Origin: a virus
Reading direction: 5' to 3' (one strand)
Virus record (IMG/VR): IMGVR_UViG_3300033146_001009
Coordinates: 1 to 39,651 of that record
DNA: 39,651 bases
The notes below the pieces were generated by a model. It was not told the DNA's origin. It saw only the letters and a list, made by a program, of their open reading frames with translations, and did not search any database. Of the stretch, positions 9,021-29,575 are shown piece by piece; the stretch's first letter is position 1, and every line of letters begins with the position of its first letter. The position numbers and the translations under genes are program-made.

Positions 9021-9377
9021 TTAGTCTTCGCTAAAATATGTTTCTGGCTCGTTGTCGTCCAGATACATACGTTGAGAGTCACCTAATGCCCTTGTGTAAT
9101 CAGCTTCGGGGTTGCCTTTTGGAATGGTGTTCCATTCTTGCATTTTTGTCATAAGAGCGATGATTCCGCGATAGACACAGTTGTAGTGCTTGTCAGCAAT
9201 ATCTATATCTTCGTCCATACTGGTAGGAACATCGAACTCAACAAAAGTGCGGCTCAACATGTCGTATTTCACCGACAGAAGAGCCGCAAAGAATGCTTCT
9301 TCAAAAGGGGTTGAATTGCCATATACTCCAAGCTCATCGGAAACTCTATCGTACAGTGATTGAGTGTTTATGCTCAT
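9021..9377 (-). CDS. Probable head-tail connector or small virion protein (118 aa)
   Basis: This is an acidic, mostly helical protein beginning MSINTQSLYDRVSDELGVYG, with a GGG-type ribosome site just before the ATG. It lies between the capsid gene and the long repeat protein, the usual place for adaptor or head-completion proteins. The length and helical nature fit such a role, but I see no diagnostic motif. Confidence 0.65.
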   Translation of the reverse strand: MSINTQSLYDRVSDELGVYGNSTPFEEAFFAALLSVKYDMLSRTFVEFDVPTSMDEDIDIADKHYNCVYRGIIALMTKMQEWNTIPKGNPEADYTRALGDSQRMYLDDNEPETYFSED

Positions 9378-18716: not shown

Positions 18717-18732
18717 TTGTTACATGTAACAA
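18717..18732. promoter_or_regulatory. Operator O1, palindrome TTGTTACATGTAACAA
   Basis: A perfect 16-bp palindrome 44 bases upstream of the P1 -35 box. Together with the 5 bases after it, it matches 21 bases at 19911-19931 in inverted orientation. Two such exact copies in one regulatory zone suggest a shared DNA-binding regulator. Confidence 0.7.
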
Positions 18733-18775
18733 ATATCCTTGCACAAAAACAAATAACTTTACTTGTTATTTGCGC

Positions 18776-18945: not shown

Positions 18946-19500
18946 ATGAGTAAAAAAACAGAAGCAAACAAAGTGGCAAAAACATTCACGGTAACGGATG
19001 AATTCAAAAAAACCTTGTCTGCATTTGCAACGGCAACGGAAACACAAGAAAGAAAATCCCTTCCCATCCGTGAGGAAATAGTCTCATTCTGTGGTCCAGA
19101 AGTCGACTACAAGGCGTTGTCTTTTGACGAAAAAAGCAAACTGTTCAAAACACGCTTGGCAGTGATTAAGGCGGCTTGCGCTGATTCGCTTGGAAAACGA
19201 TGGACTGACAAGGTTTATGGTGCTTTTCGCGTTTCGGCTACACGTGCAAAAAAAGACCTTGGTATTATTAAGCCGCCAAAAGAGGATTTAATTCCTCTGC
19301 TAACCGACAATCAAACTGCTATGCTTAAAATGTATAACGAAATGACGTTGGAAGAAAAAACTGATTTTGCCGAAATGGCAAACCCTCTTCTCGAAAAAAT
19401 CAAAGCAACGGAAAGAAAGGTAACAAACAAAGAAGAACAGGAGCTTGTTAGTAATAATCGTGCAATGTTGGCCATTGCATTTTTTAACCTTGTCGCTTAA
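18946..19500 (+). CDS. First early-side gene, hypothetical (184 aa)
   Basis: The protein is Lys- and Ala-rich and mostly helical, beginning MSKKTEANKVAKTFTVTDEF. It stands alone as a single-gene unit with its own promoter P1 and a strong terminator behind it. The ribosome site AGGGG is part of a small CCCT-TGAA-AGGG hairpin, which could mask it. Operators lie on both sides, so a regulatory or DNA-binding role is possible. No family is recognised. Confidence 0.75.
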   Translation: MSKKTEANKVAKTFTVTDEFKKTLSAFATATETQERKSLPIREEIVSFCGPEVDYKALSFDEKSKLFKTRLAVIKAACADSLGKRWTDKVYGAFRVSATRAKKDLGIIKPPKEDLIPLLTDNQTAMLKMYNEMTLEEKTDFAEMANPLLEKIKATERKVTNKEEQELVSNNRAMLAIAFFNLVA

Positions 19501-19513
19501 CCTTTCAAGGTTG

Positions 19514-19547
19514 TACCCCGTGATTTATTTCACGGGGTATTTTTTTT
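19514..19547 (+). terminator. Intrinsic terminator after the 184-aa gene
   Basis: A perfect 10-bp stem TACCCCGTGA / TCACGGGGTA with a 6-base loop TTTATT is followed by eight T residues. It lies 14 bases after the stop codon. An additional AACCTT/AAGGTT inverted repeat directly precedes it. Confidence 0.92.
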
Positions 19548-19753: not shown

Positions 19754-19782
19754 TTGACATGCTTCCTTATATGTGGTATACT
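19754..19782 (+). promoter_or_regulatory. Early promoter P2, TTGACA-17-TATACT
   Basis: A perfect -35 box, a 17-base spacer and a near-perfect -10 box make this the strongest promoter in the window. GTTAGTA follows seven bases after the -10 box, exactly as in the late promoter. It faces the whole early block. Confidence 0.85.
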
Positions 19783-19789
19783 ATTTTCA

Positions 19790-20391
19790 GTTAGTAGAGA
19801 AAGATTCTTTCCTTGCTACTTGTTCTTTCAAATTTAACCTATAACAGAGAAAGCGTACATGAGCGCATCTTTGAACACTGGGCGCAAGGTCAAAAGCGTA
19901 GCACGTTTGAGATATTTGTTACATGTAACAAAATCAAGGTGCAAGACATTGGATACTAAACAGCATAGCAACTTAAAGCACGATGCTTTACAGATTGCCG
20001 GAATTGTCACGAAAACAACTCCCTGAAAGATTGGATAGGTTGTGAGTAGTTGAATGTGTATTCTCTTATTTCCCTAGTAACACAAGACACTCTTAAAATG
20101 AGTTGATGTAAGCGATAGGGACGGCATGAACAAAATGCGTGAAACTTAAATCCACAACCTTAAATCAAAACTTAATGGAATGGCGAAGATCAAAAGTAAT
20201 CACACACAGAGTTTATGAACACGGATTAAACTTCGTGGTAGTACGTTAAAGACAATGTGAGAGCATGTGAAAACCACACTCTCACAAGATGAACACAAAA
20301 TCGAAACGCCTTTAATTAGGCGTCATTGCACCGTGGCGGGTGTGATCTTGAAGATGAAAGCCAGTGAAAAGCACAACAAAGGAGTACAAAG
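19790..20391 (+). ncRNA. Long untranslated leader, possible structured RNA
   Basis: About 600 bases follow P2 before the first good gene, with no supportable open frame. Hairpins can be seen: TAAAGC-acgat-GCTTTA near 19975, AGTTTA/TAAACT near 20210-20232, TGTGAGAG (20256-20263) with CTCTCACA (20279-20286), and ACGCCT-ttaatt-AGGCGT (20306-20323). The words ACTTAAA and CTTAAATC recur around 20140-20175. It could be a regulatory leader, an antitermination RNA, a separate noncoding RNA, or an origin. I do not recognise a known RNA family. Confidence 0.45.
19915..19932. promoter_or_regulatory. Operator O2, 18-bp palindrome around TTACATGTAA
   Basis: The perfect palindrome TTTGTTACATGTAACAAA lies about 125 bases downstream of the P2 start. 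It is the inverted partner of O1 and shares 21 bases with it. A bound protein here could block transcription or loop DNA to O1. Confidence 0.7.
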
Positions 20392-20874
20392 ATGAAATAC
20401 GTCGAAATAGTGTCAACAAGCAATAAATGTGTCACGATGCCCGTAATGAGGGCATCCGATAACCTCATTGCTGAGGTTAAGAAGATAATAACGTTTCAAA
20501 ACAAGGGTGTGCAAAAAGCATACCCTTATGAATTATCGCAAGTGATCGTAAGGTCATTCCCTGAAAGCAGGGAAACGATAATTATGCCGCCTGAATGTTC
20601 AGGCGGATGTCTCTGCTCGGCAGGGACCGAGTACGTATTTTACGACAAAGAAGGAAAAAGAATAGGGACCGGAGTTCCGGCACACTGGTCTAACGAATGT
20701 CACGGGTCCCCCCGTGACTGTTCAAAAAAAGAAGTAGTCCCCGTTGAGGGGACAGAATATGTCCTAAAAGAACAATGGGACACCATAAATGGTGGGCGTC
20801 AATGGGAGGAATTCGTCCAAGGCGACTATGTCGCCTACCGGAAAACAACTAACAAAGGGAGGAACGAAGATTGA
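20392..20874 (+). CDS. Early protein encoded by a hairpin-packed gene (160 aa)
   Basis: An AAAGGAG site precedes the ATG by 9 bases. The protein starts MKYVEIVSTSNKCVTMPVM and has a Cys-rich stretch (about residues 68-76, then C103 and C109). It repeats a GTEYV word near residues 78 and 120 and ends in a charged tail. I do not recognise it. The coding sequence holds eleven short inverted repeats from 20436 to 20836, a density I see in only one other gene (22343-22588). The gene might be both message and structured RNA, or the hairpins might have been inserted. Confidence 0.7.
   Translation: MKYVEIVSTSNKCVTMPVMRASDNLIAEVKKIITFQNKGVQKAYPYELSQVIVRSFPESRETIIMPPECSGGCLCSAGTEYVFYDKEGKRIGTGVPAHWSNECHGSPRDCSKKEVVPVEGTEYVLKEQWDTINGGRQWEEFVQGDYVAYRKTTNKGRNED
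20436..20836 (+). repeat. Array of eleven different short hairpins inside a gene
   Basis: Arm pairs: 20436-20442/20450-20456 (GATGCCC), 20460-20466/20473-20479 (TAACCTC), 20503-20512/20518-20527 (one G-U pair), 20557-20563/20568-20574 (TTCCCTG), 20587-20595/20598-20606 (CCGCCTGAA), 20616-20620/20627-20631, 20669-20673/20676-20680, 20699-20706/20711-20718 (GTCACGGG), 20737-20742/20748-20753 (GTCCCC), 20781-20786/20789-20794 (CACCAT), and 20820-20826/20830-20836 (AGGCGAC). Arm sequences differ from one another, so these are not copies of one repeat. Confidence 0.85.
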
Positions 20875-20931
20875 CCCAGTACTAGAAGTAATATTTCCAA
20901 ATCGTTAAAATTAAAACAAAAGGAATGTAAA

Positions 20932-21798
20932 ATGACACAAGAAAATACACTGAACAGTAATATCATGCTCATACGCTTGGAAATAGGTACGCCTTTTTCC
21001 ACAAAGACCAACAAGGTCGAGACGGCAAATCTTCTTGCGGAGAAAGGAGCGCAATCAGGAGCATTGAGCGTAAAAATGCCCACGTTCGCTTCGCCTATCG
21101 TTAAGGCGGCAAAGACCGCCTGTGGCCTCATCCAGAAAGAACACAAGTGCTACTGCTCAAAGTGGGATGACGCTGGGTTCTGGCTTATTAAAACCGATAG
21201 GTTCGACGCATACAAGGGAGCAATGGACAGGCGTATTGATGATGCGCAGTACGAAATCAACAAACTCGCTGACATGTGGGATATTGTCGTTGATGAAGAG
21301 CGGCAATTCAAAGGAGCATCGTACCGTGAGGACATGATGTGCAGTAGAGAGCAATTCAGTGAGGCTTTTCATGCCAGCTACAAAGTGCAGGCAATGCCAA
21401 ACATGGAGGGAATTGAGATAAATTCTTTCACTATGCGGGAATTGAAAAGCGCATTGCAGAAGCGGAATGAGGATAATCTCAAAGCAACCACAAACGCCTT
21501 GCATGATGAAATGGCTGAAATGCTCGGCAAAATGGTGAAAACGCTAGGAGACCCTGATAAGGTATTCAGAAACACGCTGGTTGAAAATATCAGAACCTTG
21601 TGTGAACAACGTACTGCGCGTGATATGATGGATTCGCCAGACTTGAAGGCGAAATTTGACAGCATTAAATTGATGGTCGATGGCTATAATGTCAACGACT
21701 TGAGAAAAAACAAACACCTGCGAAGTGAAGCAGGACGTGAAGCTGAAGAGCTTCTTGAACGCATGACAACCGCTGGAAGCGGAAGGAGAGTATTATGA
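20932..21798 (+). CDS. DUF3150-like protein (288 aa)
   Basis: The order of features resembles DUF3150-type proteins: a short strand LIRLEIGTPF at the start, a basic helical stretch, a W-x-x-x-GFWLI segment (about residue 80), a long coiled region (about 90-130), then a helix-rich C-terminal half with Lys/Glu coils. DUF3150 genes often sit beside AAA+ ATPases, which holds here. The assignment is by eye and tentative. It precedes the DUF1257 gene with an ATGA overlap. Confidence 0.5.
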   Translation: MTQENTLNSNIMLIRLEIGTPFSTKTNKVETANLLAEKGAQSGALSVKMPTFASPIVKAAKTACGLIQKEHKCYCSKWDDAGFWLIKTDRFDAYKGAMDRRIDDAQYEINKLADMWDIVVDEERQFKGASYREDMMCSREQFSEAFHASYKVQAMPNMEGIEINSFTMRELKSALQKRNEDNLKATTNALHDEMAEMLGKMVKTLGDPDKVFRNTLVENIRTLCEQRTARDMMDSPDLKAKFDSIKLMVDGYNVNDLRKNKHLRSEAGREAEELLERMTTAGSGRRVL

Positions 21799-22175
21799 GT
21801 CATCAAAGCGAACACGAAAGCAAAGACATGAGCGAATTAAAGCTCATGGAACGGGCAATTAAAGACCTTGGTGGTACGATTGTACAGGCATCAACATATC
21901 AAGGATATGGAAGAACAACGCCTCCATGCACACACAAAATAGAGTTCCCTGATTGTCGTTATGACATTGGACTAACGTGTGAGGGCAACACTATCACAAA
22001 AATGTCTACCGATTGGTGGGGCGGTGATGTGGAAAAGATAGTTGGCAAGAAGTATGCAAAACTGGAAAAGTTCTACGCTGTAAACAAACTTGAAGTTGGA
22101 GCAAGAAAAAACGGATTGCGTACACGACGCAAAATTGTAAACAACGAAATTCACCTATCAACAAGAGGATGGTAA
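21795..22175 (+). CDS. DUF1257 / Ycf35-like protein (126 aa)
   Basis: After a short N-terminal tail, residues 15-115 follow the Ycf35/DUF1257 pattern: a helix reading LMERAIKDLGGTIVQAS, the strand YDIGLTCEGN, a DWWGGDVEKI motif, then KYAKLEKFYAVNKL and the end strand EIHLSTRGW. The family is found in cyanobacteria, red-algal plastids and various phages, and its biochemical role is unclear. DUF2997 and a Ycf46-like ATPase follow, which strengthens the call. Two hairpins (21827-21848 and 21895-21909) lie in its first third. Confidence 0.75.
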   Translation: MSHQSEHESKDMSELKLMERAIKDLGGTIVQASTYQGYGRTTPPCTHKIEFPDCRYDIGLTCEGNTITKMSTDWWGGDVEKIVGKKYAKLEKFYAVNKLEVGARKNGLRTRRKIVNNEIHLSTRGW

Positions 22176-22176
22176 C

Positions 22177-22356
22177 ATGAAAGAAGTAAACATAATCATC
22201 AAAGATGGCGGGAAAATTGAAGTCGATGCTGTGGGATTCAAAGGGAAAGGATGCCTTGAAGCAACCAGCTTTATTGACAAACTCTTTGGAGTGCTGTCAC
22301 GGAAAAAGAAGGGCGACATGTACAAGAAGGAGGTGGTGAAGAATGTCCGTCATTAA
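22177..22356 (+). CDS. DUF2997-like small protein (59 aa)
   Basis: This short frame starts MKEVNIIIKDGGKIEVDAVG and continues FKGKGCLEATSFID. It matches the DUF2997 pattern: an amphipathic strand, a GxxxV strand, a GFxGxxCxxAT core, then a helix. DUF2997 genes are commonly next to DUF1257 genes, as here. It ends in a Lys-rich tail and overlaps the next gene by 14 bases. Confidence 0.75.
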   Translation: MKEVNIIIKDGGKIEVDAVGFKGKGCLEATSFIDKLFGVLSRKKKGDMYKKEVVKNVRH

Positions 22357-22588
22357 AATCTCTGACGGTGGGACGGTGAAAGCTCTCTATGACGAGAGCT
22401 TAACCGACTTTCTCACTATGTCACTTGGGGTAAATCCAAAAATCAACCGATGGTCAAACATCGAGTACAGCAATGAGCGCAATTGCTGGCAGGTAACGAT
22501 GGCAGAAACAGGCAAAGTGGTGCATGAAGCACCAACCCGTGAGGCATGTGTCACATGGGAGAAAAACAAATACAACAAAGGAGAGTAA
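22343..22588 (+). CDS. Hairpin-rich small gene (81 aa)
   Basis: A strong GGAGG site lies 10 bases before the ATG. The protein starts MSVIKISDGGTVKALYDESL and has a W-rich middle (RWSNIEYSNERNCWQVTMAE). Family unknown. The coding DNA holds at least six inverted repeats, including 8-bp arms 22380-22387/22394-22401 and 7-bp arms 22468-22474/22482-22488. That is a second case of the structure seen at 20392-20874. Confidence 0.7.
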   Translation: MSVIKISDGGTVKALYDESLTDFLTMSLGVNPKINRWSNIEYSNERNCWQVTMAETGKVVHEAPTREACVTWEKNKYNKGE

Positions 22589-27951: not shown

Positions 27952-28127
27952 TGACAACAGAAAACGCACAAAAACGCGCCGCAATGTTTGAGGTGTATAT
28001 GTGGTATGAAACCCACAAAACAATATCAAAACTAAAGCGCATCCCTGCTATGATGAGCTGGGCAGGAGCAACTCACGAAGAAGTTATAGACTTCTTGAAA
28101 GGAATCAATTATGAAAAAGTCACATAA
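27951..28127 (+). CDS. Small hypothetical protein (58 aa)
   Basis: MTTENAQKRAAMFEVYMWYE and what follows form two helices. The start is in the helicase stop codon (TAATG), with GGAG 7 bases before it, and the stop overlaps the next gene by 17 bases. Function unknown. Confidence 0.6.
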   Translation: MTTENAQKRAAMFEVYMWYETHKTISKLKRIPAMMSWAGATHEEVIDFLKGINYEKVT

Positions 28128-28443
28128 TACAAACAGAGAACTGCCAGCAACACTACGCAAAAGAACACCTGAACAATGGGTGGAACTCCTTGAGCAAATC
28201 AAAGACAAAACGCTGAAAAATAAAGTGGGATGTCTTGTGTGGTGGGACTATTTCGCGCAAAGAACAACGAAAAATGCTGTGCCACATTTTGATGTGTACC
28301 GGAATGGATACGAGGCGGGGGTAAATAACCAACCAGATGACGATGATCTTATCAAGGCTCTTGATGTCATAGGATACAAGAACGCAAAAAAACGTGTAAT
28401 TAAAAATCAAGACAAACCTTCCTTGACATCACAACGTAGATAG
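28111..28443 (+). CDS. Hypothetical protein (110 aa)
   Basis: A Lys/Arg-rich protein with a helical start (TPEQWVELLEQIKDKTLKNK) and a central WWDYF patch. Its last codons contain the -35 box of the promoter at 28423. Family unknown. Confidence 0.6.
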   Translation: MKKSHNTNRELPATLRKRTPEQWVELLEQIKDKTLKNKVGCLVWWDYFAQRTTKNAVPHFDVYRNGYEAGVNNQPDDDDLIKALDVIGYKNAKKRVIKNQDKPSLTSQRR

Positions 28444-28451
28444 GGTATGCG
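28423..28451 (+). promoter_or_regulatory. Promoter TTGACA-17-TATGCG before the initiator gene
   Basis: A perfect -35 box, a 17-base spacer and a weak -10 box lie at the end of the 110-aa gene. Transcription from here would begin near 28458, at the start of a structured stretch and about 130 bases before the replication protein gene. Confidence 0.5.
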
Positions 28452-28454
28452 TAC

Positions 28455-28521
28455 AGGTGATGGCTTACTTTGGATTGATCCCCAAAGGACAGCCGCTACC
28501 CTAGCCCGGTTGCCATCGCCT
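28455..28521 (+). ncRNA. Structured leader: 10-bp closing stem with two inner hairpins
   Basis: AGGTGATGGC (28455-28464) pairs with GCCATCGCCT (28512-28521) over 10 bp with one G-U pair. Inside lie CTTTGG (28468-28473) with CCAAAG (28482-28487) and the small GCTA-ccc-TAGC hairpin (28495-28505), giving a three-way junction. A CCTAGC/GCTAGG pairing (28500-28505 with 28531-28536) is an alternative fold. It could be a riboswitch-like leader or an antisense-type regulator. No known RNA class is recognised. Confidence 0.5.
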
Positions 28522-28585
28522 TTCTTTACTCGCTAGGATTAAAACAGGCAGGGTTCTTTTTTCCGTGCCACATTTAGGAAAAATA

Positions 28586-29575
28586 ATGACAGATTCATCA
28601 TCCCTTCTACGGGAATTACACCAACGACCAGTTGCATACTATCCGTTGTATGCAGAAATCACAGGAAGTATACCAGCAGGAGTGCTACTTTCACAGCTCA
28701 TGTATTGGTTCTCGAAGAAAGACAAATTCTTTAAGACGGCATCTGATATACAAGATGAAACGTATCTTACCGAAAAACAGCTTCGAGGTGCAAAGACTAA
28801 GATTAAATCACTGGACTTTATCACTGTAACCATCGAGGGATTGCCTGCAAAAACATACTACGAAATAGACTGGAACGCATACGAAAAATCGGTACAGACT
28901 ACTTTGGACAAAAGGGCAGAACTAGAACCTACAAAAGGGCGGAACACTGATGTACAAAAGGGACAAGCTATTACTAAGAGTACTGCTAAGAATACTGCTA
29001 AGAAAAAAGAAACTGTTAAAGAAAAAATTTCTTCTTTAAAAGCAGATTCTTCTAGTGAGGGGGTTCCGCCGAAAGATGACATATTGAGTAAACATTCTGC
29101 GAATGGACTGGTCTTAGCAAAGTTCCTTCTGGAACGTGTTGCTGAAGCCAAAGGACGCAAGCTAACAAGCACACCAACTGCAAAGCCTATCGCTGACCTG
29201 CTCAAACAGGGCGTCACTCCTAAGCAGGTACAGGATGCAATCCTGTGGCTATGCAAGAAGTATGCTGAAGGTGCTTTATATATTCCAGAGGTTCAATCAG
29301 CCAGTGCCTTGAGAACAAAATGGGATCAGGTACAAACAGCAATTGCGAAGGACAACCCACCACCCAAACAGCAACAAGAACACGCCTACAAAATATATAA
29401 AGCACCACAGAAACTCCTTCCGTGGGCACAGAAGCTCTGGGATGAGTGCCGTGAAATACAGGTATGGCGTGAAGATGATCGTGAGTTCTGGGACAACGCA
29501 ATACACAAAGCAAGACGTTTACCGCAACTAAACAAACTCGTTACTAAACATGTTGCTCAACTGAAAGGGCTATGA
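28586..29575 (+). CDS. Phage replication initiator-like protein (329 aa)
   Basis: The ATG at 28586 follows AGGA by 6 bases; a GTG 21 bases earlier is less likely. The N-terminal 100 residues form a winged-helix region of a kind common in phage replication proteins (YYPLYAEITGSIPAGVLLSQ, then TYLTEKQLRGAKTKIKSLDF). A Lys/Thr-rich linker follows, then a helical C-terminal domain. Such proteins bind the origin or load the helicase. The last codons hold one copy of a 20-bp repeat. Confidence 0.75.
   Translation: MTDSSSLLRELHQRPVAYYPLYAEITGSIPAGVLLSQLMYWFSKKDKFFKTASDIQDETYLTEKQLRGAKTKIKSLDFITVTIEGLPAKTYYEIDWNAYEKSVQTTLDKRAELEPTKGRNTDVQKGQAITKSTAKNTAKKKETVKEKISSLKADSSSEGVPPKDDILSKHSANGLVLAKFLLERVAEAKGRKLTSTPTAKPIADLLKQGVTPKQVQDAILWLCKKYAEGALYIPEVQSASALRTKWDQVQTAIAKDNPPPKQQQEHAYKIYKAPQKLLPWAQKLWDECREIQVWREDDREFWDNAIHKARRLPQLNKLVTKHVAQLKGL
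29549..29568 (+). repeat. Direct repeat copy 1 (end of initiator gene)
   Basis: The exact 20-bp sequence CATGTTGCTCAACTGAAAGG recurs at 30199-30218, precisely 650 bases on. Both copies encode HVAQLKG at the C-terminus of a gene. Confidence 0.9.

Follow-up and report, generated by a model that had tools for sequence, protein, structure and literature searches.

The window, that is, the whole stretch of DNA analysed here (IMG/VR record IMGVR_UViG_3300033146_001009, 39,651 nt), is by its genes a 39.65-kb stretch of a tailed-phage genome, where the minus strand bears the genes for terminase, portal and probable capsid proteins and the plus strand those for replication. Relatives of its terminase in IMG/VR are all distant (34-44% identity), and the five IMG/VR contigs that carry them share packaging and head genes with it and nothing else. 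One of these contigs holds a repeat-rich segment (L003:3424-4378) with overlapping same-strand ORFs that encode GPQLG/TQLG and AAARDAA-type repeats.

Our subject is a plus-strand ORF, which we call the ladder ORF after the series of hairpins within it (Table 1). It probably heads a rightward early transcript, being preceded by a terminator, a near-consensus promoter and about 600 nt of non-coding leader; the promoter is the probable start of the transcript that would carry the gene. The control region also contains a 21-nt sequence with the palindromic core TTGTTACATGTAACAA, present as two inverted copies (18717-18737 and 19911-19931) that resemble paired operators of a phage repressor.

The ladder ORF is preceded by an SD sequence, its codon LLR is positive in frame +0 only (+0.087 per codon, vs 0.14-0.19 in the neighbouring genes), and the two other plus-strand frames contain 11-13 stops; it is therefore protein-coding, in agreement with the good start signals and protein-like text noted in the original prediction. 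No homologues of the 160-aa protein were found in PHROGs, in Pfam, in phages and plasmids (tblastn) or in pattern scans of IMG/VR and GTDB. The five contigs with a related terminase likewise yielded no homologue, and synteny with them revealed no relative of the gene. Structure prediction from the one sequence gave a mean pLDDT of 38, which was unusable, and hence no fold search was made. The part of the protein encoded by 20609-20836 contains the motif GTEYV twice and GDYV once, each encoded beside or within a hairpin. The protein also has a cysteine cluster (ECSGGCLC and NECHGSPRDC).

Table 1. Features of the control region, the ladder ORF and a downstream gene of the same block.
Feature	Position	Strand	Description
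Intrinsic terminator	19513-19547	+	Strong; between gene 18946-19500 and the promoter
Promoter	19754-19782	+	Sigma-70-like, TTGACA-17-TATACT, 11/12 matches, extended -10
Three leader hairpins	20256-20346	+	20256-20286, 20306-20323 and 20325-20346; just upstream of the ladder ORF
Ladder ORF	20392-20874	+	160 aa, orphan, function unassigned; SD AGGAG at 20380; coding LLR positive in frame +0 only
Hairpin 1	20436-20456	+	gatgccc-GTAATGA-gggcatc, perfect 7 bp
Hairpin 2	20460-20479	+	taacctca-TTGC-tgaggtta, perfect 8 bp
Hairpin 3	20503-20527	+	10 bp with one G-U, loop AAAAA
Helix around hairpins 4 and 5	20531-20583	+	8 bp, AATTATCG/CGATAATT; predicted three-way junction
Hairpin 4	20542-20557	+	6 bp with two G-U, loop GTAA
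Hairpin 5	20557-20574	+	ttccctg-AAAG-cagggaa, perfect 7 bp
Hairpin 6	20587-20606	+	ccgcctgaa-TG-ttcaggcgg, perfect 9 bp (or 8 with 4-nt loop ATGT)
Hairpin 7	20609-20627	+	gtctctgc-TCG-gcagggac, 8 bp with one U-G
Hairpin 8	20669-20680	+	ccgg-AGTT-ccgg, short, 4 bp
Hairpin 9	20699-20718	+	gtcacggg-TCCC-cccgtgac, perfect 8 bp
Hairpin 10	20737-20753	+	gtcccc-GTTGA-ggggac, perfect 6 bp
Hairpin 11	20781-20794	+	caccat-AA-atggtg, perfect 6 bp (or 5 with 4-nt loop)
Hairpin 12	20820-20836	+	aggcgac-TAT-gtcgcct, perfect 7 bp
Orphan ORF	22343-22588	+	81 aa, same gene block; second-strongest local synonymous-level structure, z -5.1 sense, -3.7 antisense

Hairpins of the ladder ORF

The original prediction described eleven inverted repeats filling the coding sequence from 20436 to 20836. 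We found them at these positions and count about twelve hairpins, eight of which are perfect Watson-Crick hairpins of 6-9 bp; the total of 12 includes those with G-U pairs or shorter stems. The six perfect stems of at least 7 bp and the 10-bp stem with one G-U pair that had been reported were both recovered. The 5' arm of hairpin 2 can alternatively pair with the 3' side of hairpin 1 (20445-20469). The reading frame is open across every hairpin, the arms are unrelated in sequence, and their codon phases are irregular. Hairpin-free gaps lie over both ribosome-binding sites, that of the ladder ORF (20347-20435) and the following one (approximately 20841-20960).

In a count of all repeated words, enrichment was confined to inverted repeats separated by no more than 40 nt (6-mers, 23 vs 4.9 +/- 2.7); direct repeats and distant inverted repeats were at expectation. 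The excess is held by spacers of 2-5 nt, with 7 perfect stems vs 0.8. Direct 5-7-mers showed no enrichment and the arms differ, so that the earlier view, which excluded CRISPR and a single repeated element, holds; a CRISPR array and a palindromic mobile element of the RPE/REP type were rejected on the same grounds. A shared GGGAC/GTCCC stem motif was suggestive by eye and was also discarded for want of any enrichment of repeated words.

With pairing limited to 40 nt, the two strands fold about equally strongly (z -6.1 sense, -6.7 antisense), and a slight lean towards the sense strand appears in unrestricted folds and at other span limits. G-U pairs make up 6.5% of pairs vs 12.7% in shuffles. 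The helices are uninterrupted, with a mean length of 5.0 vs 3.6-4.3 in the RNA phage MS2. In addition, the stem codons resemble those of other phage genes less than the linker codons do (LLR about -0.03 vs 0.16, a difference of about two standard errors).

Excess over shuffled sequences and other phages

We compared the ladder ORF with 300 synonymous shuffles that keep its protein and codons (z-scores across all analyses are based on 40-300 shuffles). The shuffles had on average 1.4 perfect stems of at least 6 bp and never more than 5, vs 8 in the ORF; for stems of at least 7 bp the numbers were 6 vs 0.46 expected. The original estimate of about 0.2 such stems by chance was thus too low by about half, and the excess that it pointed to stands. 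Comparison of folding energy with synonymous-codon shuffles had been proposed as a check, with an energy inside their range as grounds for refutation; the MFE of -171.8 lies below all 300 of them (-128.9 +/- 6.9, lowest -149.2; z -6.2). This excess is a GORS-like feature, and the ladder ORF is the extreme among the 61 coding segments of the window. These results support the view that the stem excess is neither chance nor imposed by the protein sequence.

We also counted hairpins of at most -7 kcal/mol per 480-nt interval. The densest interval (20301-20780) contains 10, vs a maximum of 6 in 2008 blocks of other dsDNA phages, or 7 by sliding window, the latter in a low-complexity repeat gene. 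Among 1004 blocks of other DNA phages, the densest had 6 perfect stems, vs 8 in the ladder ORF. Most dsDNA phage genomes (97.6% of 4969) are more foldable than their shuffles (PMC11409064), and genes of phage N4 reach z -5.5, with a mean of -1.94 (90 segments of L019, N4 positions 1-50000). The shuffle z-score of the ladder ORF is accordingly less singular, and the unusual part, beyond folding energy, is the perfection and density of its stems. The folding excess of N4 is phage-wide, stronger on the sense strand (p 0.009) and above that of lambda, T7 and HMO-2011.

Perfect stems are in milder excess over 18.2-22.75 kb and about 1.4-fold in excess in the remaining phage. No ladder is present in the leader between 19541 and 20161 (mean z -0.3). 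Four neighbouring early genes each have some excess structure, three of them more on the sense strand; gene 21795-22175 (z -3.7 sense, -1.6 antisense) has the asymmetry expected of RNA. The 81-aa orphan ORF downstream contains, for example, the hairpin aagctctc-TATGAC-gagagctt. A second cluster of perfect hairpins (28001-28750, 4 vs 0.5 expected) adjoins an O-like initiator gene and is possibly a replication origin.

Origin of the hairpins

The palindrome ladder is real and unusual, and two near-equal readings, copying errors and RNA function, compete as its cause. The reading that we tentatively place first, at somewhat less than even probability, is that short-range template switching wrote palindromes into an orphan early gene, so that its mRNA became a ladder of hairpins. 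Template switching has been reported to create and to perfect hairpins (PMC8794818): fold-back copying writes an arm as a reverse complement and mends mismatches between arms (PMC8794818, PMC7202029). In a setting that we would infer from this one sequence, namely a weakly constrained, fast-evolving orphan gene heading an early operon, fold-back copying during replication of the phage DNA would create short imperfect inverted repeats and perfect them, and selection would meanwhile hold the reading frame open. The resulting mRNA would carry about twelve small hairpins separated by A-rich linkers, with both ribosome-binding sites free. The ribosome can unwind such hairpins, and any uses of the ladder, such as mRNA stability or the pacing of elongation, would be secondary.

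Several properties of the ladder ORF favour template switching. Only close inverted repeats are enriched, the stems are perfect with few G-U pairs, the strands are equal, the arms and phases differ, and the stem codons are less gene-like. The peak at spacers of 2-5 nt is expected because fold-back needs short spacers, and the regional excess over 18.2-22.75 kb and the 1.4-fold excess elsewhere are expected because a DNA-level process would give such a spread. Perfect Watson-Crick arms, strand symmetry and a short spacer are likewise features of template-switch hairpins. The ladder resembles template-switch RNA hairpins (PMC8794818) and products of quasipalindrome correction (PMC7202029, PMC8604942) in its perfect stems, short loops, differing sequences and strand symmetry; those cases come from ancestral reconstruction or reporter assays, whereas the ladder ORF is known from a single sequence.

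Other observations speak against template switching. A neutral process would be expected to fill non-coding DNA first, yet the unconstrained leader is free of a ladder; hairpins are absent over both ribosome-binding sites; and about twelve hairpins that are nearly all perfect imply a very recent origin or ongoing upkeep. We hold our confidence at this level because of these three points, which fit selection for mRNA structure. The small sense lean in unrestricted folds and the strength of the MS2 complement (z -4.2 and -3.5) also count against it.

Selected mRNA structure is a near-equal rival and a serious possibility in its own right. The message would fold into small stable hairpins, strung together by single-stranded A-rich linkers and with the initiation sites open, and this might slow or space ribosomes, alter mRNA decay or offer a series of binding sites to an RNA-binding protein of host or phage. 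The folding excess over synonymous shuffles is on the scale of MS2, whose segments reach -6.8, and MS2 with its genome-scale ordered RNA structure is also comparable to the ladder ORF when pairing is local. The ladder begins and ends with the cistron, A accounts for 51% and C for 10% of the unpaired bases (48% and 15% in shuffles), loops of 3-5 nt suit RNA, and the structure of the four neighbouring genes agrees. However, the complementary strand is equally strong, and palindromes are also in excess in non-coding and neighbouring DNA. MS2 stems, unlike those here, are interrupted, and perfect stems are no commoner there than in background (1.2-1.5 of at least 6 bp per 480 nt, vs 8 in the ladder ORF); moreover, MS2 is an RNA phage structured on the genome scale, whereas the ladder is one gene of a DNA phage. 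A search of Rfam with the ladder gave no match at the gathering score. Strand symmetry, scarce G-U pairs and the scores that MS2 attains without perfect stems point to DNA-level palindromes over classic RNA selection; strand symmetry alone is not decisive, since the MS2 complement is strong too. The original suggestion that the message is also a structured RNA is weakened as to sole cause, the signal being strand-symmetric, G-U-poor, perfect-stemmed and region-wide (18.2-22.75 kb).

Translation-initiation control, also suggested originally, finds no support in the unpaired probability of the ribosome-binding site (0.651 vs 0.695 +/- 0.083 in shuffles). Sequestration of the start codon (approximately 20393-20404 with 20629-20644) appears in the MFE fold, but accessibility equals that of shuffles. 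A sponge of the CsrA/RsmA type was rejected, as GGA is absent from all 12 loops.

Template switching and selection are compatible, and the former could supply hairpins that the latter keeps. The ladder ORF is a natural case of a coding sequence reshaped almost wholly into perfect little palindromes with the gene still open, and a small, testable phage gene in which template-switch mutation and selection for mRNA folding, which are hard to tell apart, might be separated. A functional ladder would make this a new type of dual-use gene, and a ladder without function would show that a mutational process can strongly dictate both RNA shape and protein sequence.

The closest known case is that of the 'coding palindromes' of nematomorph mitochondrial genes, for which template switching has been suggested as one possible origin (PMC6649704). 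In both, many perfect and unrelated inverted repeats lie close together inside intact coding sequence, with differing arms and positions. The nematomorph arms are 15-142 bp long at a mean distance of 37 bp (PMC6649704), whereas the stems of the ladder measure 6-10 bp and its loops 2-7 nt, and the ladder is far denser; the longest perfect stem in it is 9 bp, below the 15 bp of the nematomorph type. Those palindromes also occur in conserved genes with homologues, and here the gene is an orphan of a dsDNA phage. The palindromic elements of Rickettsia also lie inside coding sequence (described in PMC6649704), but they are copies of one mobile element, whereas each ladder hairpin has its own sequence.

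Another reading, which we consider unlikely, is that the coding sequence of an early dsDNA-phage gene serves in addition as a dedicated ladder of about twelve hairpins, unrelated in sequence and recognised by their shape. The ladder would offer an array to a host RNA-binding protein or nuclease specific for structure, or act as a device for spacing ribosomes. We know of no dual-use gene of this kind in DNA phages.

A function of the DNA itself appears improbable. Hairpins or cruciforms would form close to the divergent control region when the phage DNA is single-stranded or supercoiled. They would serve replication initiation, primosome assembly or recombination, and both the strand symmetry and the concentration of palindromes around the divergent promoters (18.2-22.75 kb) would be in keeping with this. 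However, the palindromes share no sequence or iteron, stems of 6-10 bp are short for cruciforms, and the replication genes and the other palindrome cluster (28.0-28.75 kb) lie elsewhere.

That the ladder is a chance extreme of ordinary phage sequence is very improbable: the stretch was picked by a reader seeking oddities, and dsDNA phages such as N4 are generally foldable beyond shuffles, but its perfect stems outnumber those in the shuffles and phage blocks described above, and its energetic hairpins those in the phage blocks. An assembly artefact was rejected as well, since in our judgement 6-10 bp stems with differing arms match no known assembly or amplification artefact. Least probable of all is programmed translational bypassing or the ribosome-skipped small hairpin insertions of the original prediction, which would suit hairpins inside coding sequence with less gene-like codons, but the reading frame runs on across all the hairpins and contains no stop or frameshift that would have to be avoided, the arms are unrelated and the phase is irregular. 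Elsewhere in the window, ORF 9021-9377 on the minus strand reached z -5.6 against synonymous shuffles in unrestricted folding and was not among the strongest at the 40-nt limit.
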